In this document: in pieces, positions 15,896 through 45,171 of the stretch
Numbering within the stretch: the first letter of the stretch is position 1
How the letters are laid out: each line of letters opens with the position of its first letter
From: Chitinophagaceae bacterium
Lineage (GTDB): Bacteria; Bacteroidota; Bacteroidia; Chitinophagales; Chitinophagaceae
DNA: 64,000 nt
Direction of reading: 5' to 3'
Assembly: GCA_947476485.1 (NCBI GenBank)
Contig: CANJQU010000006.1
Span: forward strand, 1 to 64,000
The notes under the pieces: model-generated
Told to the model about the DNA's origin: nothing
Databases searched by the model: none
Seen by the model: only the letters and a program-made list of their open reading frames with translations
Made by a program: the position numbers and the translations under genes

Positions 15896-17116
15896 ATGAG
15901 AAAGACCTTACTATTTTCCCCGGTATTCCTCCTATTTGCTGCAAATATGCAGGCACAGACCCAGCCGGTTATCACATCCTGGCTGCAGAATACTACCGCA
16001 ACCGGGTATGGAGGATACATCTCGAATGTGCAATTGGTGCAATACAATGCGACGTTTGTATATGTGAGCACTGATTGTATCCCCGCATATGACATTGGCC
16101 CATGGCCAACCAATCCTAACGTGCCTTCTCCGCAAAATTTCGTATGCGAGTTTCCGCGATACCCGGTCCAGAACACCGGGACCCCTACAAAGGTGGGTCT
16201 TGGCTCGATAGGCCTATGGATCAACGGGGTATCGATCTTCAATGCTGAAGATGGTTTTCACTGGGGCGGAACATCCTGGGCAATGGGGCCGGGAACGTCG
16301 TGGAACAGGAATGCGCTTCTCTTTGAAGCCGTGAGCTTCGATTCTTGCCTGGGCCACCCTGCACCGGGGGGCGATTATCATAATCATGTGAACCCAAGAT
16401 GCGTGTATAATGATGCAGACAGTACGCATCATTCGCCTATCATTGGTTTTGCATTTGATGGTTTCCCTATTTATGGCGCATATGGATATTCAGACCCTAT
16501 GTCGACAACAAGCGCCATCAAGCGGATGCATAGCAGCTATGCACTAACTACAGATACTACAAGAGCGGGAGGCCCGCACCCTATCAGCACATATCCATTG
16601 GGGTCCTGCGTAGATGACTATATCTATACTGCAAGCTCTGGAGACCTCGATGCACACAACGGCCGCTTCTGCATTACGCCTGAGTACCCATCGGGCACTT
16701 ACGCCTACTTTGTAACGATAGACGGCAGCCTTAACCCAGCCTATCCATTCGTGATCGGGCCAACTTATTATGGTGTTGTCGGATCAACGAATACACATAT
16801 TACACCAGTGGGTCCAGACACAACCTATACCGGTTCAACAACAGCTACTAACGTAACGTTAAATACAACGATCAAGTATAAAATAGCGCCTAACCCCGTA
16901 GTAGACCATCTCTATATCTATATGGATTCTGCAAACATGAACAATATAAAAGGAAGCCTGTTCGGTGCGGATGGCCGCATAGTAAAAACTGTAGACCACC
17001 TTATGCAGCCAAGCATCGCTTATGCGTTAGATATCAGCGACCTTCCAACGGGGACATATATCCTTTCGTTTGAGGGCAACGGGAAGACTGTTACGGAAAA
17101 GATCATGAAGAAGTAG
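15896..17116 (+). CDS. Secreted YHYH-domain protein with type A sorting domain
   Basis: This is a 406-residue exported protein with a signal peptide ending near MQAQ (residue 21). The YHYH domain occupies about residues 100-290, with the family motif GGDYHNH (Tyr161 to His164), then GFAFDGFPIYG and the closing GTYAYFVTIDGSLNPAYPFVIGPTYYG segment. The clustered histidines suggest metal binding. The C-terminal 75 residues (KIAPNPVVDHLYIY ... GTYILSFEGNGKTVTEKIMKK) are a T9SS type A sorting domain, so it should be displayed on or released from the cell surface. It directly precedes mbnP- and mbnH-like genes, which suggests a shared copper-related job. That link is inference. Confidence 0.88.
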   Translation: MRKTLLFSPVFLLFAANMQAQTQPVITSWLQNTTATGYGGYISNVQLVQYNATFVYVSTDCIPAYDIGPWPTNPNVPSPQNFVCEFPRYPVQNTGTPTKVGLGSIGLWINGVSIFNAEDGFHWGGTSWAMGPGTSWNRNALLFEAVSFDSCLGHPAPGGDYHNHVNPRCVYNDADSTHHSPIIGFAFDGFPIYGAYGYSDPMSTTSAIKRMHSSYALTTDTTRAGGPHPISTYPLGSCVDDYIYTASSGDLDAHNGRFCITPEYPSGTYAYFVTIDGSLNPAYPFVIGPTYYGVVGSTNTHITPVGPDTTYTGSTTATNVTLNTTIKYKIAPNPVVDHLYIYMDSANMNNIKGSLFGADGRIVKTVDHLMQPSIAYALDISDLPTGTYILSFEGNGKTVTEKIMKK

Positions 17117-17193: not shown

Positions 17194-17955
17194 GTGAAGC
17201 TCAAGATTCTAACGATTGAATTGAAACGAACATTAGCAGTGATCGTGTGCATGGCAACCGTTTCGGTTGCCATGTCGTTTATCATCCGGCCACCTGCGGG
17301 ACACCTTACTGTTTCTTTTGCTCATTACGTGGGCGACAGCGTATTACATCTGGATAGTGTCAGTTACAAAAATGAGCTAGGGCAAGCTTTTACTGTAACG
17401 AAATTTAAGTACTACATCGGCAATATTCGTTTTAAAAAGGCAAGTGGCGGGATCGTTGCGTTTGATGAATACTACCTGGTAGACGAAGAGGAAGAAAAAA
17501 CAAAAAAGATAAACATAGACATCCCGGCCGGCGAATACACAGGTCTTGACTTCATAGTAGGTGTAGACAGCCTGCACAACTGCAGTGGGGTACAATCCGG
17601 AGCCTTGGACCCTGTGAATGCAATGTTCTGGGCATGGAATACCGGTTACATCTTTTTAAAATTGGAGGGCAGGTCACCCGCATCGAAATCGCCGGGAAAT
17701 ATGTTTGAGTATCATATAGGGGGGTATAAGCAGCCTGCAAATTGCATCAGGCATATATCACTTAACTTTACGCAGCCGGTGAGCATAGAAAACGCGACCG
17801 GCAGAGAACTGAGTATTAAAGTTAATGCCGCGGAAGTACTTAGAACACCTGCCGCAATAGACTTCACGACGCTTTCTTCTGTTACGGACTTTCATAATGC
17901 CGCTACTATCGCAGATAATTATGCAGACATGTTCTCTGTGAAAGACACAAGATAA
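17194..17955 (+). CDS. MbnP-like copper-binding periplasmic protein
   Basis: This is a 253-residue protein of the MbnP family (PF20243 type). It starts at GTG 17194, with a hydrophobic export segment around residues 14-31. The family core is visible: GHLTVSFAHYVGDSVLHLDS, FTVTKFKYYIGNI, DEYYLVDEEEE, IPAGEYTGLDFIVGVDSLHN and MFWAWNTGYIFLKLEG. It contains only two tryptophans, Trp146 and Trp148, both in the FWAW motif. In the methanotroph system the di-heme partner MbnH converts a tryptophan of MbnP into kynurenine, which creates a copper site. Here the MbnH-like gene overlaps the stop codon by one base, so translation is probably coupled. Copper handling is inferred from the pair. Confidence 0.85.
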   Translation: MKLKILTIELKRTLAVIVCMATVSVAMSFIIRPPAGHLTVSFAHYVGDSVLHLDSVSYKNELGQAFTVTKFKYYIGNIRFKKASGGIVAFDEYYLVDEEEEKTKKINIDIPAGEYTGLDFIVGVDSLHNCSGVQSGALDPVNAMFWAWNTGYIFLKLEGRSPASKSPGNMFEYHIGGYKQPANCIRHISLNFTQPVSIENATGRELSIKVNAAEVLRTPAAIDFTTLSSVTDFHNAATIADNYADMFSVKDTR

Positions 17956-18992
17956 TGAAGAAGGCTGTTGTCATATTGTCCATTGTGTGTTTCGCCCTGG
18001 TTGGTTTCACCGGTGTGAATAAATACTTCATAATTACGAACGAGGACGTGGCTTTGAAAGTACCGAAAGGATTTCCGAAGCCTCACTACAGATTCAAAAA
18101 CAATACCCCCAGCCCAGAAATATTTGTACTTGGGAGAAAACTCTTTTACGACCCCATACTTTCCAGGGACAGCACCATAAGCTGTGCAAGCTGCCACCAG
18201 CGCATCGCTGCGTTTGGTCATATAGATCATGCACTGAGCCATGGTATAAACGGGCTCATAGGGAAGCGAAATGTACCTGCCTTGCAAAACCTGATCTGGA
18301 AGGATGCCTTCATGTGGGATGGCGGTGTGAATCACCTTGAGGTGCAACCGGTGAGCCCGCTTACCAACCCGATAGAGATGAATGAATCCATTGCTCATGT
18401 GCTTGAAAAATTACGGCAACATAAAGCATATGCAGAAGAGTTCAGGATAGCATTTGGCGATACTGTTATCAGCTCCGAACGACTATTAAAGTCACTGGCT
18501 CAGTTCACCGGATTAATGATCTCTTCTAACTCACGGTACGATAAGTATATGCGTGGCGAGGATACATTCTCTTTTGCAGAAAAAAACGGACTGGAGATAT
18601 TTCGGAACAAATGCGCATCCTGCCATGAAGAGCCGCTGTTTACAGATAACTCATACCGCAACAATGGGCTAAGGCCGGATACAGCACTGAAAGACAAAGG
18701 AAGAAGCTCAATAACAGGAGCGCAGTTTGATGACTACAAATTTCTTGTACCCAGCCTGCGCAATGTGGAAATGACCTATCCCTATATGCACGACGGGCGA
18801 TTCAGAAAACTAAAGAATGTGATCGATCACTATGCAAGTCCGCAAAACTTCGCACCCGGCACTGCAAAAGAGCTGGATGAGATTGGCACACTCTCAGAGG
18901 AGGACAAGAAGAACCTGATCGCCTTTCTGCTTGCGCTTACAGATAAGACCTTTTTGTACGACCGGCGGTTTGTGGATCCGTTTATGCAGTAA
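17955..18992 (+). CDS. MbnH-like di-heme cytochrome c peroxidase family enzyme
   Basis: This is a 345-residue exported protein with an N-terminal hydrophobic signal/anchor and two heme c motifs, CASCH at 77-81 and CASCH at 220-224. This is the pattern of the bacterial CcP/MauG family. Segments GRKLFYDPILSRDSTISC, NVPALQN, PVSPLTNPIEM and the PSLRNVEMTYPYMHDGRF closing motif are all present. Its gene overlaps mbnP by one base, so an MbnH role (oxidising tryptophan in the partner) is more likely than simple peroxide removal. It ends 24 bp after PFMQ without a private terminator, but a hairpin at 19212 may serve. Confidence 0.9.
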   Translation: MKKAVVILSIVCFALVGFTGVNKYFIITNEDVALKVPKGFPKPHYRFKNNTPSPEIFVLGRKLFYDPILSRDSTISCASCHQRIAAFGHIDHALSHGINGLIGKRNVPALQNLIWKDAFMWDGGVNHLEVQPVSPLTNPIEMNESIAHVLEKLRQHKAYAEEFRIAFGDTVISSERLLKSLAQFTGLMISSNSRYDKYMRGEDTFSFAEKNGLEIFRNKCASCHEEPLFTDNSYRNNGLRPDTALKDKGRSSITGAQFDDYKFLVPSLRNVEMTYPYMHDGRFRKLKNVIDHYASPQNFAPGTAKELDEIGTLSEEDKKNLIAFLLALTDKTFLYDRRFVDPFMQ

Positions 18993-19260: not shown

Positions 19261-22200
19261 TTACCTAACCAGCGTTACATCGCCCTTTTCTTCGATAGTG
19301 TTGCCACCGCAATCATACTTTATGTAGTAGTAGTAAACATCCATATCCTGCTGCACCCCGCCAAAACCACCATCCCACTCGGGATAGGTGTTAGCGCTTT
19401 GGAAGACGGTTTGTCCCCAGCGGTTCACTATACGGAATTCATGGAAGTTATGAAAACCGTTGAGAATTGGCCGGAACCTGTCGTTACGACCATCGCCGTT
19501 CGGAGTGAATGCAGATGGAAATAAAACAGTACAGCATGCATCAGGATTGAACTGCTGGCTTGACACGGACGCACAACCAAAAGGATCTGTAACGGTAAGT
19601 GATATTTCCGTTCTGCCCTGCTCCAGCCTGCCCCATATGTTCGGCTTATTGTTATTGTTGAAGCAATGCTCCGGTTCCCACAGGTACGAGCAATTGGCAT
19701 TGTTGTAGCGAGCTACAAATAGTATGCTGTCTTCAAGACATAAGTTACCTGTTGATTTTGGTATCGCGTCAAACACTGCACTGGGCAACGCATGCACATG
19801 TATTGTATCCCTGATCGGCACTGATGGGCAGTTGAGATTAGAGATGGCGGTAAGCGTAATTGAGTAGATACCCGAAGCGGGGAATGTGACGATGAATGGT
19901 CCACCATGGTTAGACGATGCAACCAAAAGAGTAGACCCCCCAAAGTCCCACGTATAATCTGTAACGCCCGGCCCGATATGAGCCAAGGCAATGGTCACCG
20001 AATCGCCCAGACAAACATCAGGCTTCACATAGAAGGACGCATCTGGCGAATTAATGTACACCGTCATCGGAATGGTATCCATTGAATTGCAGGCGGCATA
20101 ACCATCTCCAACGATAAGCGTAATGATGTTGCTGCCAAGCACTGTATCGTAGTACATAGTCATTGAGGGGCCGGAAAGTGAGGAACCTGTGTAGAGCACC
20201 CCATTTGACGGCAGCACCCACGAGAATACCTGGCCGGGGAATGTAGGCCCGGAGTAATAGAAGCTGATCGTGTCATCCTGGCAGGCAGTGGGCCGTGCCG
20301 GCAATATTGAAAATGAGGGGTGTACATGAACTGTAACTTGCAACGGAGCACGGGGACCTTCGCATCCCCCCACACTCTGGCTCACATACCATGTGGTAAT
20401 ACCGGGAACAGCAGTTGATGGAATTGGCGCAACAAAATCACCCACACCTCCTGTAGCTGCTGTGTACCAAAGCAGGTTGTTACCTACTGCAGTAAGTGGT
20501 GCGGCTGGATCGCTTTGGCAATAATCAATATTAGTTGCAACAGGAGCCGCCGGCAGTGGAATAACAGTGATCATTTCAGTTATTAAACACCCCGTGGCAA
20601 GTGTATATGTAATGGTGGCAGTGCCTGCGGCAATACCGGTAAGCGTGCCTGCGCCATCTATGGTAGCAATACCAATATTGCTGCTGGCCCATGTACCTCC
20701 GGGACTTGCATCAATTAGAGTGGTTGAGGAGCCCAGACACACGCTTGCCGCCCCACCGATAGCACCGGGTAGTGGATTTACAACCACAGGAATAGTAGTA
20801 TAGCATCCGCCGGGCAGTGTATAGGTAATGGTAACCAGCCCCGCGGAAACACCAGTTACAATACCCCCGGCATTAACAGTCGCTGTACCAGTGCTGCTGC
20901 TGCTCCATGCGCCACCGGGTGAAATATCAGACAAAGAAGTAGTAAGCCCTTCACAAACATTAGTAATGCCCGATATCGCTGCCGGTACCGAATTCACGGT
21001 AACAACGCGGGTAGTCCGGCAACCGGCACCGGAGGTATATGTTATAGTAGCTGTTCCTCCAGAAATACCAGTAACAATGCCGGAGCCAAGACCAATTGAG
21101 GCAATAGCGGGTGTTCCCGAACTCCAGGTCCCGCCAACTGTGGCATCGGCAAGGTTAGTAGTAGCGCCTACACACAACACCGCAGTGCCGGTGATGGGAG
21201 CTACATTGACCACCGTAAATGTTACTGTTGCAAAGCAACCGGCCGGCGTCATATAGCTAATGGTTGTAGAACCAACAGATACGGCAGTTACAACACCGGT
21301 AGCGCTGATCGTAGCCACGCCAGTATTAGAACTGCTCCAGGTGCCACCGCCCGTGGCATCATTAAGAGCGGAGGTACCCCCAACACATGCCGTTGTTGTT
21401 CCTGTTATCGGTGTAATTGGATTAACGGTTACGACCGCAGATACTGAACATCCCGATGCTGTAGTATAAATGATGGTTGAAGTGCCGCCTGAAATACCTG
21501 TAACGACGCCTGTTGCCAGTCCGATAGTGGCAACAGAAGTAGTACCTGAGCTCCATGTGCCACCGCCCGCTACATCAGTAAGCGTTGTAGTGCTGCCCTG
21601 GCATACGATCATCGTTCCTGTGATCGGAGCCAGCGGGTTAACTGTAACAACAGCAGATGCAGTGCAGCCGGCCGCGGTTGTATAAATTATAGTAGTTGTG
21701 CCGTTGGAAATCGCCGTTACAAGCCCTGTGCCGAGACCGATAGTGGCAACAGCAGGCGTGCCGCTGCTCCATGTGCCGCCGGGTGTTGCGTCAGTAAGTG
21801 TGGTTACAGCGCCGGCGCATAAAGTAAGTGTACCCAGTATAGGCGAGATCGGGTTAACTGTAACGATCGCGTTGACCGTACAACCCGCGGCTGTCGTGTA
21901 TACTATCGTTGTAGTTCCCCCGGAAATGCCGGTAACAATACCGGTTCCAAGGCCTATTGTAGCCACACCCGGAGAACCAGAGCTCCAGGTACCGCCACCG
22001 GCAGCGTCTGTGAGTGTCGTTGTGTTGCCCTGGCACACAGTCAAAGTTCCGGATATCGGGGCGATAGGGCTAACTGTAACAACGGCAGATGCAGTGCAGC
22101 CGGCAGCTGTGGTATATACCACAGTCGTGGTCCCGTTAGCAACCCCGGTTACAAGCCCGGTACCAGCGCCAATTGTAGCAACTGCGGGAGTGCCGCTGCT

Positions 22201-25194
22201 CCATGTGCCTCCGGCTGTGGCATCAGTGAGTGTGGTCGTACTGCCCGCGCATAAGGTCAGCGTACCTAAAATCGGGGATATCGGGTTAACGGTAACTACA
22301 GCGCTGACCGTACATCCCGCGCCTGTTGTGTAAACTATCGTGGATGTACCACCGGCAATGCCGGTCACGATACCTGTTCCAAGACCAATCGTTGCAACGC
22401 CGGGTGAACCGGAGCTCCATGTGCCGCCACCGGCAGCATCTGTAAGTGTCGTCGTACTGCCTTGGCAAACCCTTAAGGTGCCTGAAATTGGGGCAAGCGG
22501 GGTAACGGTTACTACCGCTGATGCGGTACAACCTGCGGCAGTAGTATACACAACTGTTGTTGTGCCATTGGTAAGCGCAGTAACCAGCCCTGTAGCCAGA
22601 CCTATTGTAGCAACCGCGGGAGTCCCCGAGCTCCATGTGCCCCCCGGTGTAGCATCAGTGAGTGTAGTGGTGCTGCCGGCACACAAAATTAATGTGCCAA
22701 GGATGGGAGTTATCGGATTGACAGTAACTATCGCAGTGGCAGTGCAACCCGCGGCTGTGGTGTAGGTTATTATTGATGTACCGGAAGCAACGCCAGTAAC
22801 TATTCCTGTTGCACCAATTGTTGCAACGCCGGGCGTTCCTGAACTCCAGGTACCGCCACCAGTAGCATCATTGAGCGCTGTGGTCCCGCCGGGGCAGACA
22901 CTTAGTGTACCCGTGATGGGGGCAACGGTATTGACCGTGACGATAGCGGTTACATAACAGGTAGCGCTGCCATAAGTAATTACTGCTGTGCCCGCTGCAA
23001 CTCCGGTTACCAGCCCGCCGGCAGTAATAGAAGCTATGCCGGGGCTGCCACTGGTCCAGCCTCCGCCCACCGTAGCATCGGTCAATAATGAATTGCCGCC
23101 TATACATACAGAACGGTTACCTAAAATTGGCGTCGGAGGCGCTATAACAGTTACCACTACTGTGGCCTTGCAACCCGTTGCCGTGTTTGTAAAAGTGATC
23201 GTGGTAGTACCGGGAGAAACCGCATTAACAACGCCACCGGGACTTGTAATAGTAGCCACACCTGGTGTGCTGCTCGTCCAGGTATGCGCTCCGGCCGTAG
23301 CATCTGTTAGCGTTGTACTGCTGCCAACACATAGTGTCGTAGTGCCGGATATCGGAGCGACAGAATTAACGACAACATTAACGCTGCCCGTTGCAGTAAT
23401 GCCGCAGGCGTCAGTAATAGTGAGATTATATAAAGTCGTAGCACCGGGCGACACAACAACCGGCGAACCAGCAAGCGGACCCGGGGTCCACGAGTAGCTG
23501 TAAGGAGGCACGCCATACATACCTGTACCTGTGAGCGTTGTTGACCCGCCAACACAAATAGACGCAGGAGCAGCAGTTGCCGATACGAACTCCACTGTAT
23601 GGCCTTCCACTATGATGCTCAGGTTAGAGCCTGAGTTAATGTATAATGGACTGCACGCCGCTTTGGCGCCCAGAGTCTCATAAAAATACATGGTAATGCC
23701 CAGGTTGTGCGGCGCACACTGCGGCGGCGGAATACAGCCTCCAAAATCGGAGAACATAGTATAAAGCGCTGTACCGTCTGCTGTGCAGGTACCAGGCCCC
23801 GGAATATTACAAAACCAGTAAAGGCCGCCAAAACCAGTGGGAGGTATTGGGCTTCTGCATCCGCCCGTAATGTAAAAGTCAATAGCACCGTCTGACAACC
23901 ACCCAATACTGTTTGTAATGTAAATAAATGCATAACGGATATCCGTGAGCGTGGCGTTGGCCGGTGTTGTGGCGTTATTGAAATACGGACAGCCAGACAT
24001 TGGCGCCAGCGCAGCGCTGTATGAAGAACCGTTTACAACAGAGACTGTAGTGGTTGATACCAGCGGATCCACAATTACCGGGTACGATGCCGCAGGGCGA
24101 TCCAGGAAATCTCCCGGAACTGCGATATCGAGTGTATTGCCATCAATGTAATAATCGAGCAACTGCATGGTGTTCCTGATGTTGTTCTTTTCACAGACGT
24201 TCGCTGCAGAAATAACATACTCTTGTTCCCCCGCTGCATTCCTTACTTCCAGGTTGTCAGCAATCTTAGTCTTACCGCCTGAGAATAATGATAAGCCGTT
24301 ATCCATTTTCAGGTGATCCCGTATCAGCAGTTTGCCGCCTGCATATTCCGGCATCGCATGGTTAATGTAAAAGTTCGTCTTAACAGCGCCACGAACCGTG
24401 TGCATCTCAATATCGATCCCGGGCCATGCATTCGTCACATACACGCCCTCATCGCCGGCCGTGTGGTTGGTCCAGTTTGCATTACCTAATGTAACCATGC
24501 GGCCATCTGGCTTAGCAAACAACAGCTCCAGATTGTGGTTGAACTCCAGTCGCTTTCCTTCTTTGCCCAACGATGAGAAATTATCACCACTGGTAGTATT
24601 GATAACAACTGGCACGGGCTGCTCGGTAGCTGCATAAATACCGCGACGCAGGTTATCAGGTGTGAGTGACGCCTTTACTGTCATCCAGTTACCGCGCGCA
24701 TCTTTATAGTGTGCCGGCAATGACGTTGTCTGTACAAGTATGTCCTTACCTCCGTCTGTTCCCGATGTTCCCTCTTTTAAAAATGTCTTCGAAAATTCAG
24801 TGCGTTTCCCGATCAGCTCGTAACAATTGCTACAGGGCGCATCCGCAAAAAGCATTCCTGCTTCCGGATGATCTTCATAACCGGCATTCAGCAGCATAGC
24901 TTCACCGGTGGTATTTTTTGAAGGCCTCCTGAATGTAGAATAATTGCCTGGGGCGTTCCCCTTCACTGTGTTCTTGCTTTGTCTGCCTGTGGCATGCGCG
25001 GCATGCTGTGGCAATGCAGGTGTATTATGAGACAAGTCAGAAAGGAATGCGCCACCTGTGAGATGCGGTGTAACTGATTCCTTCACATGCTTCCCCATAA
25101 CACCCTGTGCGAAAACCCGGTTAAATGGAGAGATAAGTAGTGTTGCCCCGGTTATTATAAATGGGATAAATGACCGTGTAAAAACAAATTTCAT
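19261..25194 (-). CDS. Giant secreted BIG2-repeat protein with type B (CHU_C) sorting domain
   Basis: This is a 1977-residue surface protein. A signal peptide (to about residue 30, VFAQ) leads into an N-terminal region of about 500 residues, with a C-x2-C (CSNC) near residue 120 and several beta-rich segments, that I cannot assign. One Ig/PKD-like domain follows, then 13 tandem BIG2-like repeats of about 72 residues, each opening P-I-x-G-T-x-x-x-C-x-G and containing GGTWSSG..GVATIG...G.VTG. Several PKD-like domains come next. The last about 90 residues (LFPSAFTPNGDGRNDRF ... IVNRWGQTVF ... YYYYIKYDCGG) are the gliding motility-associated/type B T9SS sorting domain. It is the only type B protein in the window. 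It probably acts as a long adhesin or matrix fibre; ligand unknown. Confidence 0.9.
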   Translation of the reverse strand: MKFVFTRSFIPFIITGATLLISPFNRVFAQGVMGKHVKESVTPHLTGGAFLSDLSHNTPALPQHAAHATGRQSKNTVKGNAPGNYSTFRRPSKNTTGEAMLLNAGYEDHPEAGMLFADAPCSNCYELIGKRTEFSKTFLKEGTSGTDGGKDILVQTTSLPAHYKDARGNWMTVKASLTPDNLRRGIYAATEQPVPVVINTTSGDNFSSLGKEGKRLEFNHNLELLFAKPDGRMVTLGNANWTNHTAGDEGVYVTNAWPGIDIEMHTVRGAVKTNFYINHAMPEYAGGKLLIRDHLKMDNGLSLFSGGKTKIADNLEVRNAAGEQEYVISAANVCEKNNIRNTMQLLDYYIDGNTLDIAVPGDFLDRPAASYPVIVDPLVSTTTVSVVNGSSYSAALAPMSGCPYFNNATTPANATLTDIRYAFIYITNSIGWLSDGAIDFYITGGCRSPIPPTGFGGLYWFCNIPGPGTCTADGTALYTMFSDFGGCIPPPQCAPHNLGITMYFYETLGAKAACSPLYINSGSNLSIIVEGHTVEFVSATAAPASICVGGSTTLTGTGMYGVPPYSYSWTPGPLAGSPVVVSPGATTLYNLTITDACGITATGSVNVVVNSVAPISGTTTLCVGSSTTLTDATAGAHTWTSSTPGVATITSPGGVVNAVSPGTTTITFTNTATGCKATVVVTVIAPPTPILGNRSVCIGGNSLLTDATVGGGWTSGSPGIASITAGGLVTGVAAGTAVITYGSATCYVTAIVTVNTVAPITGTLSVCPGGTTALNDATGGGTWSSGTPGVATIGATGIVTGVASGTSIITYTTAAGCTATAIVTVNPITPILGTLILCAGSTTTLTDATPGGTWSSGTPAVATIGLATGLVTALTNGTTTVVYTTAAGCTASAVVTVTPLAPISGTLRVCQGSTTTLTDAAGGGTWSSGSPGVATIGLGTGIVTGIAGGTSTIVYTTGAGCTVSAVVTVNPISPILGTLTLCAGSTTTLTDATAGGTWSSGTPAVATIGAGTGLVTGVANGTTTVVYTTAAGCTASAVVTVSPIAPISGTLTVCQGNTTTLTDAAGGGTWSSGSPGVATIGLGTGIVTGISGGTTTIVYTTAAGCTVNAIVTVNPISPILGTLTLCAGAVTTLTDATPGGTWSSGTPAVATIGLGTGLVTAISNGTTTIIYTTAAGCTASAVVTVNPLAPITGTMIVCQGSTTTLTDVAGGGTWSSGTTSVATIGLATGVVTGISGGTSTIIYTTASGCSVSAVVTVNPITPITGTTTACVGGTSALNDATGGGTWSSSNTGVATISATGVVTAVSVGSTTISYMTPAGCFATVTFTVVNVAPITGTAVLCVGATTNLADATVGGTWSSGTPAIASIGLGSGIVTGISGGTATITYTSGAGCRTTRVVTVNSVPAAISGITNVCEGLTTSLSDISPGGAWSSSSTGTATVNAGGIVTGVSAGLVTITYTLPGGCYTTIPVVVNPLPGAIGGAASVCLGSSTTLIDASPGGTWASSNIGIATIDGAGTLTGIAAGTATITYTLATGCLITEMITVIPLPAAPVATNIDYCQSDPAAPLTAVGNNLLWYTAATGGVGDFVAPIPSTAVPGITTWYVSQSVGGCEGPRAPLQVTVHVHPSFSILPARPTACQDDTISFYYSGPTFPGQVFSWVLPSNGVLYTGSSLSGPSMTMYYDTVLGSNIITLIVGDGYAACNSMDTIPMTVYINSPDASFYVKPDVCLGDSVTIALAHIGPGVTDYTWDFGGSTLLVASSNHGGPFIVTFPASGIYSITLTAISNLNCPSVPIRDTIHVHALPSAVFDAIPKSTGNLCLEDSILFVARYNNANCSYLWEPEHCFNNNNKPNIWGRLEQGRTEISLTVTDPFGCASVSSQQFNPDACCTVLFPSAFTPNGDGRNDRFRPILNGFHNFHEFRIVNRWGQTVFQSANTYPEWDGGFGGVQQDMDVYYYYIKYDCGGNTIEEKGDVTLVR
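20548..23362 (-). repeat. 13-unit BIG2 repeat array inside the type B giant protein
   Basis: There are thirteen in-frame units of about 71-73 codons (about 216 bp). Units at the two ends are the most divergent; units 3-9 are the most alike. Boundaries are approximate, set at the P-I-x-G of each unit. Repeat DNA also produces long open frames on the opposite strand, which are not genes. Confidence 0.85.
21412..22713 (-). repeat. Higher-order (two-unit) repeat within the BIG2 array
   Basis: Units 4 to 9 alternate between two types. Units 4, 6 and 8 open PILGTL.LCAG and contain SSGTPAVATIG. Units 5, 7 and 9 open PISGTL.VCQG or PITGTM.VCQG and contain AGGGTWSSG. The block is therefore three copies of a dimer of about 434 bp. 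This indicates expansion by duplication of pairs, not single units. Confidence 0.8.
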
Positions 25195-36759: not shown

Positions 36760-39700
36760 CTACTTCTCTACCGATACATGAAACACTACGTGATCTGCAC
36801 CGGATGTAACGCTGACCAGGTACATACCACGGGCCAGTGTTTTCGGGAGATCTACCTGTTCGTTCACACTGCCGTTTTTCGCAGTCGAGGTCTTCGTGTA
36901 AATGGTCTGTCCCAACATATCTGTTACCACAATATCGAGGTCATTATTCGCAGCAGAAGCAAGCGACCCCTTTATTGTAAATGAACCGGCATTGGGGTTT
37001 GGCATCAGCGTCAAACTATTAAGACCTTTACCGTTGTGCCTGATACCTACCGGCACAACCGATATCGATATACCCGCGCTCGTTACGGTCTGAGGCTCGG
37101 CACAAAGGAAACTACTTGTTTCCATGCAGCTTACCACCTGGCCGTCCCTAAGCGAATCTGTGATATATGTAGCACTGTTCGCGCCAGTAACAGGCACCCC
37201 ATCTATGTACCACTGGAACGAAGGCGATGCCCCTGCTCCGCTCGCAACTGCAGTGAACGTATCTACCATTCCCGTTGAAATGCTTGACTGGCTGACCGAA
37301 ACAGACAGCGTATTAACTGTTGGCGTAAACACATGCACTGTGAACGTATCGCTGATTGCCAGGTTAGTAGCCAGGCACGGATAATTGCTGGTCATGGTAA
37401 GTACCAGTTTGTCTCCATCTAGTGGCGTATAAATAAAATAAGGCCCTGTTGCTACATTGGTATCATTAAGCGTCCACAGGTATGTTGGTGCTGTGCCGCC
37501 ATATACGGGAACCGAAATAAACTGCACCGTATCTCCGGTACAGGTACTATCTCCATGAATAGATGTGATGCTGACAGATGGACTCATGAGCGGACTTACT
37601 GTAATAACCATGCTCCTGCTCACCGTATCCGGGGTTACACATGCTTCGTTGCTCGTAAGCAGGCAGGTAACCACATCGCCATTTGCCGGTATGTAGGTAT
37701 AGATAGCGCCCGCGCCAACCACTGTGCCGTTCACACTCCACTGGTACACTGGGCCTGGACCGCCGTTCGTGGCGCTTGCGGTAAATGTTTCGGCTGCTGC
37801 CGGTGCGCACATGGTATCACCGAGGCTTGCGACGATGCTTACACCTGGAACAACAACTGTGCTGCTTACGGTTATAGACACTAACGCTGAACTGCCGGAA
37901 CAGCCGATACCGTCTGTAACCACTACACCATAGTTTCCGGTAGCATCTGCATCATAAGTAGCGCTGATAGCGCCTGAAATGTCTCCGCCACCCAACTGCC
38001 ATTGGTAATTGATGCCTGAGCCCGATGTTGCTGTCAGGGTAGCAGTTGCACCAAAGCACAGTGAAAGAGGTCCTGCCGGGGTAATACTCACGGTCGGCGA
38101 TGCATTTACGGTAACAACAATTGTAGCATTTGACAGGCAACCACCGCTGCTTGTTACAATATAACTGATTACCGCAGTACCCGCGGAAACACCGGTAACT
38201 GTTCCAAACGCATCAATTGAAGCTATGCCGGCACTGCCACTGCTCCAGGTGCCTGAAGCCGTCGCATCAGAAAGCGTGATAGTATTCCCGATACAGACAC
38301 CGGTCGTACCGGAAACAGGGGCGACTACCCCACCGGTGGAGACCGTCACTATTGCTGTGGCTGTCGCCGTGCCGCAGGAGTTGGTCACTGAGTATGAAAT
38401 AACTGCGGTGCCTGCAGATACACCGGTAACAACACCGCCTGCATCCACGGTTGCCACTCCAACATTACCGCTGCTCCATACACCTGATGCAGTTGCATCG
38501 GATAGTGGTATCGTGAAGCCGGCACAAACGCTTGCAACACCACTGATCGGCGCTGCTGAAACTGAGTTAACCGTAACAGACACCGGCAGTGATGCACTAT
38601 CGCAGAACGCGCTATTATATACTAATACATTGTAAGTGCCGGTGGTCGTCGCAGTATAGCTTGAATTTGTTGCACCTGCGATCGGCGAACCGCCGACCTG
38701 CCACTGATACGTAAGACTGGCACCAGTATTGGCATTCAACACCACACTTCCGGGATCGCAGAAAGTTGTAGGGCCGGCAGGGGTGATCGTTGCTGCAGGT
38801 TTATTACACAATGGGCCATCGACGAGGAAGAACCTTGAGAACCCAGTGAATGTTCCTTTGAAACCAACATAGTTTGTACCAGTGACCAATACAGGAGTAA
38901 CCTCAATAGAGTTTCCCGGATTAACGGTGGCATCTGTCGGCGCGTCTGATTTAAGCAGGAATAAGGTACCTGCAGCGATCCCGTTGAGCTCGGTATTGGT
39001 CATGTACATGGTTATGTCATAGGTGGTTGTAGCTCCGTTTATTGTCGGGGTCACTGATATCTCCTTCAATGATCTATTGATCGCGGCAAAAGACGCCGGA
39101 ACGAACCCAACCCCACCTTGCGTAACTGTAGCATTCACACACCCCAGTTCATTGCTGATATTTTTAAGGCCAGCTATAAGGTTAGTGTCTGCCGTCTGAG
39201 AGTAGAAATATACTTCGGAGCCCGAATGCACATACCATGTATGGGTGTTACCTGCCACAGTTTCGATAGGTGTTGGAAGAACGTTCTGCTTGAACCGTAC
39301 CACCGGCCGCGCGGAATTTTGTGTTCCCGCATTATATCCAAGTGTACAGCCCGTTCCCGTACCGCCATTTGTAATATTGTTATCAAATACTGTCGCACCG
39401 CCTTGTATGCCATCCATCCTGTCGTTGCCAGAGAATGCCGCCGCGTTTTGACCGTAACAAATATCCACTACAACATTGCTCACACCATCCCATGTAAACG
39501 TGCCGGTGTTGAAATTGATGGAGTCCATGCCCAGGTTAGTTGTAACATTTCCGGTGAATACCTGTGCGAGTCCGCCCACAAATGCAGGACCGCCAAGACT
39601 AGCCACTGCTGTGTTACCCATGCTGATCGTGTAACCAATAAATGGAGCCGTAGACACTTTAGTTGTAACGTTAAAGGCGATCTGTGAAATGGGCGCACCT

Positions 39701-41946
39701 TTACGCACTCCTGCAGCAGAAAGTTCGCTTGCGAAAAGCAGGAACTGCTCATGGGCTCTCCGGCTGCCGCCCGTAAACGCAGAGGTAAGGTTTGAGGTAA
39801 CCAGCGAACCCTGGTTCAAAATAGGATAATTGATCCCCCCTAATAGTGGGATGCTGTCATCATTATCAATAAATACCTGCAGCGTATCGGCCGTCGGAGA
39901 TATCGTGGCAGTACTTCCGCTGGCTGTCAGCGTAAATGCCAGCTTCACAAATTTATTATCATTAACCGCCCCGTTATCCGAAATGGTCATGGTCGCATAC
40001 TGCGTAGAGGTATCTCCCGGCGCCCAAATAAGCGAGGTAATGGCCAGGTTATAATCAATACCGGAAACGGCAGTGCCACCCGGCACCGCAACAACATTTA
40101 TTGAAGGACTGCCACCGGTGATTGGCGGGCCATATGGCTTGAGGCCGATATTGATCACTTTTATGGCAGGACAGCCCGTTGTCACTACCTTCTCAGACAC
40201 ATGCATTACGGTTGCAGTAAACCCGATCTGTGGGGTGCATGGATTAAATGCTGCGCCTACACCAACGGCATACCACGCATTTGTTACACTCTGTACTTCC
40301 GGCGAACAAGGGCCATACAATGTTGTAGCAGCAGCAATAGATGTGGTCCGGCAAACCGTATAAGTTGCCATACTTGACAACAGCAGTTCTGTCTGGTAGA
40401 GTATGTCTGCGGCTTTTGTCCAGCCCAGCGCATTAACGTTGTAGGAGTTGCCAAGGTCGTTTGTCCCGATACCACCCATAGTTACCAGGTAGTACCAATG
40501 ATTCAACACACCACTGTTGGTATGCACACCGCACTGGTCATTTCCGCCACCCGGCGTACAGCCCACTACATTAAACCAGTTGGTGCCTCCATAAGTATCC
40601 GGTTGTCCTTGTGATTTCGGGTCACTCATACTTCTGAGCGGGTTGCCGCAGCCTATCTCCTCTCCTACAAGCCATACCGATTTTGGAACGGCGTCTGCCT
40701 CAAGTGGGTTCGACCAATTCTCAATCGTAGCAGCCCAGCAGTCGCTGAACCCTTCGTTCATGCCACCAGACTCCCTCGAATAAACAAGGTTGGCGGTCGC
40801 CTCACATACGCCGTGCCCTATTTCATGCGCAGTTACATCAAGGCTCACCAGCGAGGTGAACCCACCCGCAGCACAACCCGTTCCGTCTCCGTATGTCATT
40901 TCCACCCCGTCCCAATAAGCATTATTATAATTGGTGCTGTAGTGCACATATTGCAGCAATATCCCATTCGCATCGTCCCAGCTCAGCCGGCCTTGTTGGG
41001 TGCTCCAGTAATCATAAACCATTTCACCCCCCCATTGCGCATCGAGCGCGGCTCTGTCTGCCACCGGAGAAGGCCAGGTATTGGTTGCACTTGTATACTC
41101 TGTTGCAGCAGCATAGTCCGTCCCATTCCCCATATTCAAGGTATGTACTCCGCTGCCACGTGTAGAGTCAAACAGCCTGTAACTTGCACCCACATGCGCA
41201 GTCTGGAAAGGAACAGTTCCGCTATACATAGATGTTCCGCTGGCAGCGGTATGCTTCAACAAGGAATTTGAAAACAGTACTTTGCCCGTTGTTGCATCAA
41301 TATATACCATCTGCCGGCTAAGCGGTTGTGTTGCGTAAATATTAAATGCCCAGGCAAGATGAAGCTTCCTGTCGGCGCTGCCGCTATTAATGTCTTCGAT
41401 CCATTCAAGCTGGCCTTTCGGCAGAAAAGATGTATCCGGGTTATGATACATTGTTTTAATACGCGCTTCTTCCCCTGCGTCCTGCCACATGTATTTTTCA
41501 GCCCCTACAAAACTCAGCGCTTTGGAAAAAGCCGTACCAGCTGTAATAGCGGGCACCGCTGATGTTGCATTATTAAAACGGTAATAGTTGCCGGTAATAA
41601 AACTAACACGGTTATCCTTGCTCATCAGGGTAAAGCCACCAAAAGAAACCTTTATACCCTTAAAATACTCAGTATATCTGTCCGATGTTATTTTCTTCTT
41701 GGTTGTTGTTGAGTACAGCCGCTTCATCTGCGTGTTCACGCCGTCCACCCCAAGATACTGTTTGAAAATCTCCTGTGCCTGGGTCGGGTTCCAGTTTGTG
41801 TTTTGGGTAAACGTAATAGCTATCGGAGTATTATCTTCTTTATTCTTCTCTACAGAAAGGATCGTATTGTCCTTACTTTGCTGCGCATTAGCCGAAGCGC
41901 TCAGCAGTAAAAAACAAACGGGCATCAGTATGGCATAATTTCTCAT
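36760..41946 (-). CDS. Secreted thermolysin-like (M4) metalloprotease with Ig/BIG2 tail and type A sorting domain
   Basis: This is a 1728-residue exported zinc endopeptidase, started at ATG 41946 (MRNYAILMPVC), not the TTG at 41970, because it gives a normal signal peptide. An FTP-type propeptide (about 30-220) precedes the M4 domain. The zinc motif HEIGH has His374, Glu375 and His378, and the third ligand Glu398 lies in GGMNEGFSD. After the protease come a Calx-beta-like region (ITSLIWAPGDTSTQYATMTISDNG), a domain of unknown type, Ig and BIG2 repeats, and the three-Ig tail with type A sorting domain (LMPNPNAGSFTIKG ... FHVSVEK) that it shares with the two genes downstream. Substrate unknown. 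Confidence 0.93.
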   Translation of the reverse strand: MRNYAILMPVCFLLLSASANAQQSKDNTILSVEKNKEDNTPIAITFTQNTNWNPTQAQEIFKQYLGVDGVNTQMKRLYSTTTKKKITSDRYTEYFKGIKVSFGGFTLMSKDNRVSFITGNYYRFNNATSAVPAITAGTAFSKALSFVGAEKYMWQDAGEEARIKTMYHNPDTSFLPKGQLEWIEDINSGSADRKLHLAWAFNIYATQPLSRQMVYIDATTGKVLFSNSLLKHTAASGTSMYSGTVPFQTAHVGASYRLFDSTRGSGVHTLNMGNGTDYAAATEYTSATNTWPSPVADRAALDAQWGGEMVYDYWSTQQGRLSWDDANGILLQYVHYSTNYNNAYWDGVEMTYGDGTGCAAGGFTSLVSLDVTAHEIGHGVCEATANLVYSRESGGMNEGFSDCWAATIENWSNPLEADAVPKSVWLVGEEIGCGNPLRSMSDPKSQGQPDTYGGTNWFNVVGCTPGGGNDQCGVHTNSGVLNHWYYLVTMGGIGTNDLGNSYNVNALGWTKAADILYQTELLLSSMATYTVCRTTSIAAATTLYGPCSPEVQSVTNAWYAVGVGAAFNPCTPQIGFTATVMHVSEKVVTTGCPAIKVINIGLKPYGPPITGGSPSINVVAVPGGTAVSGIDYNLAITSLIWAPGDTSTQYATMTISDNGAVNDNKFVKLAFTLTASGSTATISPTADTLQVFIDNDDSIPLLGGINYPILNQGSLVTSNLTSAFTGGSRRAHEQFLLFASELSAAGVRKGAPISQIAFNVTTKVSTAPFIGYTISMGNTAVASLGGPAFVGGLAQVFTGNVTTNLGMDSINFNTGTFTWDGVSNVVVDICYGQNAAAFSGNDRMDGIQGGATVFDNNITNGGTGTGCTLGYNAGTQNSARPVVRFKQNVLPTPIETVAGNTHTWYVHSGSEVYFYSQTADTNLIAGLKNISNELGCVNATVTQGGVGFVPASFAAINRSLKEISVTPTINGATTTYDITMYMTNTELNGIAAGTLFLLKSDAPTDATVNPGNSIEVTPVLVTGTNYVGFKGTFTGFSRFFLVDGPLCNKPAATITPAGPTTFCDPGSVVLNANTGASLTYQWQVGGSPIAGATNSSYTATTTGTYNVLVYNSAFCDSASLPVSVTVNSVSAAPISGVASVCAGFTIPLSDATASGVWSSGNVGVATVDAGGVVTGVSAGTAVISYSVTNSCGTATATAIVTVSTGGVVAPVSGTTGVCIGNTITLSDATASGTWSSGSAGIASIDAFGTVTGVSAGTAVISYIVTSSGGCLSNATIVVTVNASPTVSITPAGPLSLCFGATATLTATSGSGINYQWQLGGGDISGAISATYDADATGNYGVVVTDGIGCSGSSALVSITVSSTVVVPGVSIVASLGDTMCAPAAAETFTASATNGGPGPVYQWSVNGTVVGAGAIYTYIPANGDVVTCLLTSNEACVTPDTVSRSMVITVSPLMSPSVSITSIHGDSTCTGDTVQFISVPVYGGTAPTYLWTLNDTNVATGPYFIYTPLDGDKLVLTMTSNYPCLATNLAISDTFTVHVFTPTVNTLSVSVSQSSISTGMVDTFTAVASGAGASPSFQWYIDGVPVTGANSATYITDSLRDGQVVSCMETSSFLCAEPQTVTSAGISISVVPVGIRHNGKGLNSLTLMPNPNAGSFTIKGSLASAANNDLDIVVTDMLGQTIYTKTSTAKNGSVNEQVDLPKTLARGMYLVSVTSGADHVVFHVSVEK

Positions 41947-42140
41947 TATGCTTTTCGTAAAGAAATACATATATTTTCTATTTTACGTTGAAGAAGGATA
42001 ATAGCTGGAAATTTAACAAAATTAGGGAAAAACTAACCTCAAATGGGGTGAAAGATATTTATTTAGTGGCGAATACGGAATAAAACAACCACACATATGT
42101 AGCGCGAAATCATATTGATGCGAAATTAAAAAAGCCAACT

Positions 42141-42148
42141 TACATTTG
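42141..42148 (+). promoter_or_regulatory. Bacteroidota promoter for the large peroxidase operon
   Basis: TACATTTG matches the -7 consensus TAnnTTTG. A TTG at 42115-42117 stands 23 bp upstream, near the usual -33 spacing. The ATG follows 37 bp after the element. Confidence 0.55.
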
Positions 42149-42185: not shown

Positions 42186-44102
42186 ATGAGAAAGATACGG
42201 ATGTTATCTGTTATTGTGGCGGTGGTGATTTGTTCGTTTACGCTTGGGAAACAACACAGCCCTTATTATGACCATTATATAAATGCCGTCAACGGTTTTG
42301 AAGACGCAGCACGATTACTTTCAGATAAAATAAAAAAAACTGATTGCATGTCGGAAGCTGGCAGAAACGAGATCAGGCAGGAGATAGGCAGAGCCAGATT
42401 AAAATTAAAAAGCATAGATATTTGGTTACGTTACTTCGAACCGGTCGCTTATAATCAGCTCAACGGTCCGCTCCCGGTAGAATGGGAGAATGAGGTATTT
42501 GAAAAATTTGAGAAACCATACCGGCGAGAGGGAGCCGGCTTGTCGCTGGCCGAACTATACCTTAACGAACCGGATATAAATAAGGACACGCTTCAGCACC
42601 TGTTACTGCAGTCGCTTATCGCGATCAAAACCTTCAACGCAGATTCTATTACACTCCAGCTCGACACCTTCGATCATTTTTTCCTGGCCAACAGGCTATA
42701 CCTGCTGAATCTTGCGGCCATCTACACAACAAGCTTCGAGTGCCCGGACACCAAAAATATTATCCCCGAGTTGCGTGCAATGCTGACTGATGTTAAAACT
42801 ATTTATGGTTTATACAACCAATCATTCCCAGCCACTCCACTTACAAATGACTACCTCACACACTATGACAAGATGATAGTGTTTGTAAACAACCAGCCTG
42901 CTGATCATACGCTGTTTGACCACTACTCTTTTATTAAAGACTATGTCAATCCGCTTTTTGCCATCAATCAAAGGCTTATAAATACTTACAACGTCATTTC
43001 AAAGAGTTACAATGATTTCACGCTAAATAACGACCCTGCATCGATCTTCGACAAAGGGCTCTACACGCCACAGAATTCAAAGGGCATTTACTCCATGGTA
43101 AAGGATACAGAAACGCTCGGTGAAATAAAGCGAATTGGTAAACTGCTTTTTTATGACCCCATCCTCTCGGGAAACAACCAGCGCAGTTGTATATCCTGTC
43201 ATAAGTCAACACAATATTTCACCGACACAACGAGACAGACGAGTCTCCAATTCAATAAACAGGACGGTCTGGCACGGAATACACCGTCGCTCGTAAATGT
43301 GATCTATAACCATTTGCTGATGCTGGACGGTAAACATATTTCACTACAGGCACAGGGGCGTGCAGTAATGACCAACCCGATGGAAATGGGTGGTGATGAA
43401 AAAGATATTGTAAATAAGGTACTCAGTTGTAAGGAGTATAAAACTGCTTTCAAAAAATTCCTGAAATATACTCCCGAAGAAAAAACAATAACATTCGATC
43501 ACATTGTATCTGCGGTCACCTTTTATTATGCCGACTTCAGTAATTATTATGCCCCTTTTGACGATGCAATGAATAGCAATAAACCCATTGATAATGCAAG
43601 CATCAAAGGCTTCAACCTGTTTATGGGCAAGGCACGGTGCGCCACTTGTCACTTCGTCCCTCAATTCAACGGAGTGAAACCGCCATATATCAGTACAGAA
43701 TTTGAAGTGCTCGGCGTACCAGCCGATACCGGAGCCACCAGGCTGAGCGAAGACCGGGGACGTTTTGATGTGAACCCTGCTAACGAAACAATGAATGCTT
43801 TCAGGACTGGTTCTATAAGAAACGCGGAGTACACCAAACCCTACATGCACAACGGCATATTTACTACCCTTGAGCAGGTAATTGAATTTTATGACGCAGG
43901 CGGCGGCGCAGGAAGAAAGCTAAAAGTGAGCAACCAGACCCTGTCATCCGATTCACTAAAATTATCGGCATCGGAAAAAAAAGAATTAATTTCGTTTATA
44001 CATTCATTGAATGAAAAGATCATTTTCCAGAAAATACCTGAAAAATTACCCGTTTCTTCTAACGCCGGATTGAATGTCAGAAAGGTGGGTGGCGAGTATT
44101 AA
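42186..44102 (+). CDS. Di-heme cytochrome c peroxidase with extra N-terminal helical domain
   Basis: This is a 638-residue exported protein. Residues about 22-290 form a helix-rich domain (SIDIWLRYFEPVAYNQLNGPLPVEWE is its most distinctive part) that is not part of ordinary CcP enzymes; I cannot name it with certainty, although it recalls imelysin-like domains. The C-terminal 330 residues are a CcP/MauG-type module with heme c motifs CISCH (335-339) and CATCH (485-489) and the family segments GKLLFYDPILSGNNQRSC, NTPSLVNV, VMTNPMEMGG and TGSIRNAEYTKPYMHNGIF. It should act in the periplasm. A lipoprotein cytochrome c starts 15 bp downstream and may be its electron donor or acceptor. Substrate unknown. 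Confidence 0.87.
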   Translation: MRKIRMLSVIVAVVICSFTLGKQHSPYYDHYINAVNGFEDAARLLSDKIKKTDCMSEAGRNEIRQEIGRARLKLKSIDIWLRYFEPVAYNQLNGPLPVEWENEVFEKFEKPYRREGAGLSLAELYLNEPDINKDTLQHLLLQSLIAIKTFNADSITLQLDTFDHFFLANRLYLLNLAAIYTTSFECPDTKNIIPELRAMLTDVKTIYGLYNQSFPATPLTNDYLTHYDKMIVFVNNQPADHTLFDHYSFIKDYVNPLFAINQRLINTYNVISKSYNDFTLNNDPASIFDKGLYTPQNSKGIYSMVKDTETLGEIKRIGKLLFYDPILSGNNQRSCISCHKSTQYFTDTTRQTSLQFNKQDGLARNTPSLVNVIYNHLLMLDGKHISLQAQGRAVMTNPMEMGGDEKDIVNKVLSCKEYKTAFKKFLKYTPEEKTITFDHIVSAVTFYYADFSNYYAPFDDAMNSNKPIDNASIKGFNLFMGKARCATCHFVPQFNGVKPPYISTEFEVLGVPADTGATRLSEDRGRFDVNPANETMNAFRTGSIRNAEYTKPYMHNGIFTTLEQVIEFYDAGGGAGRKLKVSNQTLSSDSLKLSASEKKELISFIHSLNEKIIFQKIPEKLPVSSNAGLNVRKVGGEY

Positions 44103-44117
44103 ACCCAAAATAAGCCG

Positions 44118-44510
44118 ATGAACAAACGACATTTAATATCAGCGCTATCAATTATTGCAGCAGCCATTTTTATGCAGTGTAAAAGCAGCAATAAGATCAC
44201 CTACAATCTCCCTTCTACCATGACTAAGGAGCAAAAAAGTGAATTGCTTGAAAAGTGCAGGAAAGGACAGGAGTTGTTCAAGGTCAACTGCTCCGAGTGC
44301 CATGGGATATTTACAAAAGGGAAAGATAAAGTGCCCAATTTTACCAATGAGCAAATTGACAATTATTCGGCTCGCTTTCTTCGCCACGACCCTAAGAACC
44401 ATGCTGTTACCAAAGACATGAGCCCTGAGCAAATGAATTCAGTACTGATGTTCCTGCGGTTCAGGAATGTAAAGAAACTGCCGACTACTGTTGACAAGAA
44501 AGCTGCCTAG
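44118..44510 (+). CDS. Lipoprotein cytochrome c (single heme)
   Basis: This is a 130-residue exported protein with a lipobox ending at Cys21 (AIFMQC), so it should be lipid-anchored. It has one heme c motif, CSECH at 58-62, and a C-terminal methionine-containing region (KDMSPEQMNSVLMFLRF) that offers the second heme ligand. It lies 15 bp downstream of the two-domain di-heme peroxidase and is almost certainly co-transcribed, which suggests it shuttles electrons for that enzyme. Confidence 0.85.
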   Translation: MNKRHLISALSIIAAAIFMQCKSSNKITYNLPSTMTKEQKSELLEKCRKGQELFKVNCSECHGIFTKGKDKVPNFTNEQIDNYSARFLRHDPKNHAVTKDMSPEQMNSVLMFLRFRNVKKLPTTVDKKAA

Positions 44511-44558
44511 CGCCTGAAACGGCCAGGTGGACCCTTTGCATGGTATAAATTATGTCTT

Positions 44559-44566
44559 TACCTTTA
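44559..44566 (+). promoter_or_regulatory. Possible -7 element before the cysteine-free GPx-like gene
   Basis: TACCTTTA differs from TAnnTTTG at the last base only and lies 19 bp before the ATG at 44586, so this gene may have its own transcript in addition to any read-through from the cytochrome genes. Confidence 0.3.
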
Positions 44567-44585
44567 ATACTAAACACACAGCATT

Positions 44586-45122
44586 ATGAGATTGAATATA
44601 ATTTTCTTTTTTCTTTTTCTGCCATTTGTAGTGCTGGCAAAGAACAAGGTGCCAAAGAGCATTTATGATTTTAAGGTTATGGGGCTGAACGGCAAAACGA
44701 TAAATTTCGCAAAGTTCAAAGGCAAAAAAATACTTATCGTTAACACACCATCGATGGCAGACAATCACCGGGACTACGCAGAAATTGAAGCTGCTTACCA
44801 GAAGTATAAAGATAAGATGGTAGTGATTGGCTTTCTAGACGATGACTATGGACCTCCTCCCGGCTCAAAAAGAGAAGTAGATTACTCAACGAAGAACTAC
44901 CATGTTACATTCCCGTTGGCGGCCAGGGTCATTGTAAAGGGCAGTGAAATGACCCCGATCTATAAGTGGCTTACCCAAAGCAGGTATAATAAGTATAAGG
45001 ACACAGAGGTGAAATGGGACTTCCAGAAATACCTGATCAATGAAAAGGGAGTGCTGGTGGCGGAGTTTGACCCAAAAGTAAAAATGACAACACCCGAGGT
45101 GGTTGCTGCTATAGAAAAGTAA
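44586..45122 (+). CDS. Glutathione peroxidase-fold protein lacking all catalytic cysteines
   Basis: This is a 178-residue exported protein (signal peptide to about residue 18, VVLA). The glutathione peroxidase scaffold is clear: SIYDFKVMGLNGKTINFAKFKGKKILIVN at the start, YHVTFPLAARVIVKG in the middle, and EVKWDFQKYLINEKGVLVAEF near the end. However, the protein has no cysteine at all. The place of the peroxidatic Cys reads NTPSMADNH, the Gln motif reads FLDDDYG, and the Trp-Asn pair is WD in place of WN, so only the Trp of the catalytic tetrad remains. It cannot be a thiol peroxidase and is probably a binding or structural pseudoenzyme. It follows a heme peroxidase and a cytochrome c gene. 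Confidence 0.8.
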   Translation: MRLNIIFFFLFLPFVVLAKNKVPKSIYDFKVMGLNGKTINFAKFKGKKILIVNTPSMADNHRDYAEIEAAYQKYKDKMVVIGFLDDDYGPPPGSKREVDYSTKNYHVTFPLAARVIVKGSEMTPIYKWLTQSRYNKYKDTEVKWDFQKYLINEKGVLVAEFDPKVKMTTPEVVAAIEK

Positions 45123-45145: not shown

Positions 45146-45171
45146 TAGCCCCTTTCAGGGGCTATTTTTTT
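45146..45171 (+). terminator. Terminator after the GPx-like gene
   Basis: An 8-bp perfect stem (TAGCCCCT, 45146-45153, with AGGGGCTA, 45157-45164) with a TTC loop and seven Ts. It ends the + strand peroxidase/cytochrome/GPx-like group. Confidence 0.95.

Follow-up and report, generated by a model that had tools for sequence, protein, structure and literature searches.

The closest described relatives of the protein considered here are the thioredoxin-dependent, cysteine-based glutathione peroxidases (GPx) of profile PF00255, such as yeast Hyr1/Gpx3 and poplar GPx5, with which it shares the fold, the Trp of the catalytic tetrad and many scaffold residues. ERp29, a redox-dead chaperone of the thioredoxin rather than the GPx fold, provides escort without active cysteines. 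The AA5 copper-radical oxidases (galactose oxidase, GlxA and glyoxal oxidase) use two His as copper ligands. MauG oxidizes Trp residues of its partner protein, and MbnH oxidizes Trp of MbnP. MbnP and MbnH (TIGR04052 and TIGR04039) are described as a conserved pair (PMC3621798). In this pair, as at the locus reported here, the gene for a MauG-like di-heme enzyme lies beside that of a small exported protein (probably exported in our case). Human GPX7 and GPX8, PDI peroxidases with a GPx fold, are tied to oxidative protein folding in a secretory compartment according to PMC12781119, in which they are also described as reacting with H2O2, a difference from the protein described here, and in which ERFAD, of a different family, is given as a glutathione-reductase homologue without catalytic cysteines.

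The window analysed is a 64,000-nucleotide stretch of a Chitinophagaceae genome (4.58 Mb in 215 contigs). Its open reading frame at 44586–45122 (+) encodes a protein of 178 amino acids that matches PF00255 (GSHPx) with 63.3 bits (cut-off 27), and a PDB sequence search returned glutathione peroxidases as top matches. An AlphaFold2 model (mean pLDDT 84.6, 24 sequences) was searched with Foldseek, and all 50 PDB matches listed were GPx or GPX4-based designs (best E 1.9e-13), GPX7 and GPX8 among them; the fold thus rests on the predicted model and on profiles, in agreement with the scaffold recognized in the preliminary description. The catalytic tetrad was judged against yeast Hyr1 chain 3cmi (C44, Q78 of QEPG, W133 and N134), which we take to be Cys36/Gln70/Trp125/Asn126 of Hyr1 plus a tag of 8 residues. 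By this comparison, the peroxidatic Cys is replaced by Ala58 (codon GCA at 44757–44759), the tetrad Gln falls in a one-residue deletion and the Asn is replaced by Asp145 (codon at 45018–45020), while Trp is retained as Trp144. Three of the four tetrad residues are therefore gone, in agreement with the preliminary description, the resolving Cys of thioredoxin-dependent GPx is absent as well and, as had been stated, not one cysteine occurs in the 178 residues. The gene order described earlier also holds, with a CCP_MauG di-heme gene (42186–44102) and a cytochrome c gene (44118–44510) preceding the GPx gene on the same strand, and the proposed export is probable as judged by the N-terminal sequence. 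A match to the GPx profile is usually read as a peroxidase; for this family, in which only the Trp of the catalytic features is left, such a label would be misleading.

The genome of the window contains seven GPx above the Pfam cut-off, two with and five without the Cys; the window protein has 53% identity to one of the ordinary enzymes and 49% to the other. Homologues were found in all 35 genomes of the genus (own genome included), and were fetched with flanks; 92 sequences in all were read, giving 26 Cys-less and 65 Cys-keeping copies (62 of the genus plus L012–L014), with L110 left out as split. The Cys-less copies are spread over 14 of the 35 genomes, and copy number across the genus ranges from zero to five per genome; such multiplicity, and a position near Kelch and cytochrome genes, set the family apart from the thioredoxin-dependent enzymes. 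At the peroxidatic position the 26 copies carry Ala (8), Asp (6), Asn (6), Leu (4), Glu (1) or Met (1). All 26 share an identical one-residue deletion of the tetrad Gln, a residue present in 65/65 Cys-keeping copies, and the resolving Cys is likewise found in 0/26 versus 65/65. Among the 25 Cys-less copies with letters in the respective columns, the tetrad Asn is Asp in 20 and Asn in five, and Trp is kept in 24 (L122 has Gly). Every one of the 65 Cys-keeping rows has Cys, Gln, Trp, Asn and the resolving Cys. The core is free of cysteine in 21 of the 26 Cys-less copies; the other five have a single one, at neither the peroxidatic nor the resolving position.

A tree of 89 rows was built with IQ-TREE after removal of the columns of the peroxidatic Cys with its neighbours, the resolving Cys and the Asn, with the Gln column left in, and in it the 25 Cys-less rows form one clade (support 100/99) nested among Cys-keeping members of the genus. 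Loss of the Cys maps to one change, a value as low as which was reached in 0 of 500 shuffles, and independent losses are not needed. Chance is excluded because the 26 copies with identical losses form a clade, and by the tree topology the loss of Cys is a single event followed by duplication. The window gene clusters with L112–L116 (100/92), and every member of this group carries Ala in place of the peroxidatic Cys. A greater age of the Gln loss had been suggested when the Q of NQF was taken as the tetrad column; comparison with 3cmi placed the tetrad Gln at the Q of QEPG, and the recount reversed that claim about order. With ordinary and dead copies in one genome and a single loss, the family would make a clean case for studying how a redox enzyme turns into a non-catalytic partner.

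The reading frame has been under constraint. In-frame stop codons were found in none of the genus matches, and among the Cys-less pairs the four with the least divergence (L112/L113, L112/L114, L120/L125 and L060/L069) have dN/dS of 0.03–0.09 (NG86 and YN00; dS 0.36–1.29), synonymous sites being saturated in most pairs. For five pairs that include the window gene, YN00 gave 0.10–0.19, largely saturated. Cys-keeping orthologues of the same six genomes gave 0.013–0.077 where computed (0.03–0.08 by YN00), and mean column entropy is 1.20 bits in the 25 Cys-less rows versus 0.94 in 62 Cys-keeping rows. As judged by these substitution patterns, the Cys-less gene is preserved, somewhat more loosely than the Cys-keeping enzyme. 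The conserved pseudoenzyme put forward in the preliminary description is thus borne out by descent (one clade, all 26 copies sharing the loss) and by purifying selection. The opposite outcome that it named, homologues mostly with the Cys and relaxed selection, is not what was found: the Cys is missing from the nearest homologues, although it is retained in more distant GPx, and the Cys-keeping enzymes are only somewhat more constrained.

The neighbourhoods of the Cys-less genes are distinctive. Neighbour clustering revealed large proteins at nearly every Cys-less locus, and a Kelch head domain was found within 5 kb of 19/26 Cys-less genes (14 within 1 kb) versus 0/63 Cys-keeping loci (L110 included). 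Matches to the Kelch profile of about 150–270 bits were left uncounted: the one at window position 19264 contains Ig repeats but, by Pfam, no Kelch motif, and those at window position 54807, L084, L102 and L209 were assumed to be of the same kind, L084 and L102 being two weak matches to the Kelch/Ig profile among the 63 Cys-keeping loci. The 19 pairs are arranged divergently (14), convergently (4) or codirectionally (1), and retention of the linkage through differing orientations suggests a function. At one locus (L121, 351–10107), a single Cys-less GPx gene sits between two Kelch genes. No Kelch head lies within 5 kb at L112, L115, L116, L067, L111 or the second L126 copy; L115 and L111 are near contig ends, and the L126 Kelch gene ends 2 kb from that second copy. 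The window GPx gene has no Kelch neighbour either, the only trace being a decayed Kelch gene 29 kb away (15294–15590, −), in which an N-terminal Kelch piece is joined to a T9SS-like tail with the middle missing and the signal-peptide part in another frame. This remnant matches best the Kelch gene of L191 and then that of L114, which adjoins an orthologue of the window GPx.

Scoring the first 40 candidates per genome, the genus search gave at least 63 Kelch hits of at least 190 bits in 22 of 35 genomes, with a Kelch gene in 14/14 genomes that have a Cys-less GPx and in at least 8/21 that do not; the lack of Kelch next to Cys-keeping GPx was confirmed separately from the fetched flanks. Among 43 Kelch hits without an adjacent Cys-less GPx, 40 loci were read and none had a GPx in reach, and because of these the Kelch protein does not always need the dead GPx. 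Beyond the genus, the Kelch family was found in 18 of 297 other genomes of the order searched, and no GPx occurs in the short flanks of the 11 such loci read.

The Kelch proteins appear to be type-IX-secreted exoproteins by their architecture. The first 500 residues of 12 of them form one family (alignment A1, 61% mean column identity), Pfam places Kelch motifs between residues 91 and 220 with Ig-like repeats in most of the 12, and a T9SS tail is present in all six proteins whose C terminus lay within the fetched stretch. When a model of the Kelch head (pLDDT 78.5, 12 sequences) was searched with Foldseek, the best 26 matches were AA5 copper-radical oxidases (best E 9.4e-18, TM 0.41–0.56). On the predicted model only, the partner shares with AA5 oxidases the propeller and the C-terminal Ig-like fold; it differs in its added Ig repeats and T9SS tail and in the copper ligands, which appear to be missing. 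Specifically, no invariant His was found in the 12 rows of A1, and beyond position 312 no His is shared by seven or more rows, so that by this sequence alignment the two copper-binding His appear to have no counterpart. An active copper-radical oxidase is ruled out on this ground, and because there is no conserved His the Kelch protein was not filed as an AA5 enzyme.

GPx and Kelch sequences partly share their history. Pairwise distances correlate across the 19 pairs (r 0.73, 0/10000 permutations, species kinship not removed), and four groups are supported in both trees (L070/L093/L128/L113/L114; L077/L075/L060/L069; L117/L123; L120/L125). The nearest relative agrees in only 10 of the 19 pairs, and the trees differ elsewhere, for example at L122, L063 and L124. 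Some genomes hold two or three GPx/Kelch pairs; the window's genome has three, which are spread over separate groups of the Kelch tree, and the position of L126 is not resolved in the GPx tree. Joint inheritance of linked genes together with species kinship could alone give such agreement between trees without physical contact.

Taken by its sequences, this is a real, conserved, genus-level family of GPx pseudoenzymes with a strongly linked, predicted secreted partner. The reading we prefer, at a rough probability of 0.42, is that of a redox-dead GPx-fold family, descended from an ancestor that lost its catalytic site once and spread since then by duplication, that serves as a non-catalytic periplasmic partner of a T9SS-exported Kelch protein. 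In the periplasm, the dead GPx would act as an escort, assembly factor or docking protein, its client being a type-IX-secreted protein with a galactose-oxidase-like Kelch propeller head; in the branch of the window it would work together with the MauG-like di-heme protein and the small cytochrome c. We infer the periplasmic location, the physical binding and the escort role. The family points to a module, with ties to MauG-like chemistry, that may export or mature type-IX-secreted Kelch proteins.

The gene row of the window bears on the most serious competitor. The di-heme gene (42186–44102, +) encodes a 638-amino-acid protein with two CxxCH motifs and a CCP_MauG domain (PF03150, 122.2 bits, residues 316–465), which places it in the CCP/MauG superfamily. 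It is closest to the MbnH and MauG models, far below their cut-offs; a true MbnH is ruled out by TIGR04039 (164–166 bits, cut-off 362.85). Compared with MbnH the protein is also longer, and its neighbour has a GPx fold rather than being an MbnP. The cytochrome c gene (44118–44510, +) encodes a mono-heme protein with one CxxCH and is a probable lipoprotein by the FMQC near its N terminus. At 10/26 loci, the one in the window included, a relative of this cytochrome c is encoded ahead of the Cys-less GPx. Seven of them have the di-heme, cytochrome c and GPx trio (window, L112, L114, L115, L116, L063 and L111), and three have cytochrome c and GPx without the di-heme gene (L124, L117 and L123). The 63 Cys-keeping loci gave no match to cytochrome c and a single weak di-heme match (102 bits, L108).

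The three genes of the window are possibly one operon. Upstream, TACATTTG at 42141–42148 (+) ends 38 bases upstream of the start codon of the di-heme gene and matches TANNTTTG, which we take to be the Bacteroidota −7 motif (not enriched in the window, with 31 found and 50 expected). We propose the operon because this motif precedes the di-heme gene, none was found between the cytochrome c and GPx genes (44511–44585) and a terminator-like hairpin with a T run (45146–45171, +) directly follows the GPx gene.

From this arrangement, the dead GPx could instead be the protein that the MauG-like enzyme acts on or docks with, in the role that MbnP has for MbnH, with the kept Trp144 or Trp128, for example, being oxidized and the cytochrome c acting as electron carrier. 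We consider this unlikely but worth weighing, given the gene order at seven loci, the retention of the tetrad Trp in 24/25 copies and the precedent of the conserved MbnP/MbnH pair (PMC3621798). It is further favoured by a second row in the window, composed of genes for a YHYH protein with a T9SS tail (15896–17116, +), an MbnP family protein (17194–17955, +; PF20243 175 bits, TIGR04052 49 bits against a cut-off of 140) and an MbnH-like di-heme protein (17955–18992, +; PF03150 172 bits, TIGR04039 202 bits, below cut-off). This MbnP/MbnH-related row starts beside the Kelch remnant, in the same order as at L191 and L194, where an intact Kelch gene faces it; there, MbnP takes the place of the dead GPx. 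At L114, one Kelch gene is flanked by a YHYH gene (identified by BLAST) and by the GPx row. Against a MauG partner, 19/26 Cys-less genes showed no di-heme gene in the stretch read, which in some cases was cut off by the end of a contig. At L195 (1–5659), a Kelch gene is divergent from genes for a MauG-like protein and a cytochrome c, and no GPx was found in the following 2.3 kb. Moreover, Trp128 and Trp144 are equally conserved in the Cys-keeping enzymes and so bear no special mark, and L122 has Gly in place of Trp144.

By analogy, the two rows might be interchangeable di-heme units, carrying either MbnP/MbnH or a dead GPx in the place of MbnP, that serve one Kelch exoprotein family as a module for secreted-protein maturation; we regard this idea as rather improbable. 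Under the same idea, a peroxidase fold would have been recruited to serve a heme oxidase as scaffold or substrate, and this oxidase would build or escort a pseudo-galactose-oxidase on the cell surface. The idea is not favoured, because of the same 19 of 26 genes without a di-heme neighbour in the stretch read.

The sensor or chaperone roles offered in the preliminary description, with binding of a peroxide, lipid or partner protein, fared differently from each other. A sensor would bind a peroxide, lipid or small ligand in the emptied active-site cleft and report it, and retention of the Trp and of much of the scaffold is consistent with such binding, as is D87 near the lost Gln, an Asp conserved in 92% of the 25 Cys-less rows. 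The peroxidatic position, however, is occupied by any of six residues and its neighbours are variable, and the lack of conservation at that position speaks against a single ligand chemistry being preserved in the pocket. In addition, the families that recur at Cys-less loci are those of Kelch/Ig exoproteins, di-heme proteins and cytochrome c, with no recurrent signalling gene seen, although most single neighbours are unannotated. On the combined ground of this variability and of the Kelch linkage (19/26 versus 0/63), the comparisons point to a protein partner more than to a sensor, and a sensor seems to us a poor prospect.

A decaying or hitch-hiking gene without function would fit the decayed Kelch gene in the same window, the weaker constraint relative to Cys-keeping copies and the very uneven copy number. 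The absence of internal stop codons from the genus matches, the low dN/dS of the least diverged pairs and the single old loss with 25 placed descendants leave this explanation, like that of a relaxed pseudogene, disfavoured and very improbable. Residual peroxidase or reductase activity through another residue is hardly credible despite the kept fold and Trp, as 21 of the 26 copies have no core cysteine and the other five have theirs away from the two catalytic positions.

Returning to the redox-dead family, its known range is the genus. The Cys is kept by every GPx at the best-scoring loci fetched from the family (28/28 loci, 147 genomes searched), the order (30 GPx in 29 loci, 396 genomes) or the phylum (28/28 loci, 395 genomes); these samples overlap and comprise best-scoring loci only, so divergent Cys-less copies elsewhere are possible. 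A DNA pattern for WDFQK, applied to 395 genomes, hit 34 sites in 30 genomes: the four in the window's own genome are Cys-less GPx, whereas the 29 loci fetched for the remaining 30 sites contain no GPx. Among open-licence PMC papers, judged by title and start of abstract, we found none that treats such a Cys-less GPx family. In named records, relatives come from uncultured Bacteroidetes MAGs (74–76% identity) and, in Cys-keeping form, from Lacibacter luteus (48%), a MAG of the Chitinophagaceae (47%) and a genome of the Pelagibacteraceae (28%); by these matches the genus probably belongs to the Chitinophagaceae.

Two further large genes of the window encode proteins with type IX signals. A 1,977-amino-acid protein (19261–25194, −) combines Big_2 repeats with a CHU_C type IX signal and is possibly a surface adhesin. 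A divergent M4 metallopeptidase (36760–41970, −), which carries Ig-like repeats and ends in a T9SS tail, has a C-terminal part (about residues 1050–1736) that is 49–58% identical to the tails of several Kelch proteins of related genomes, an exchange of heads on a common Ig/T9SS tail.
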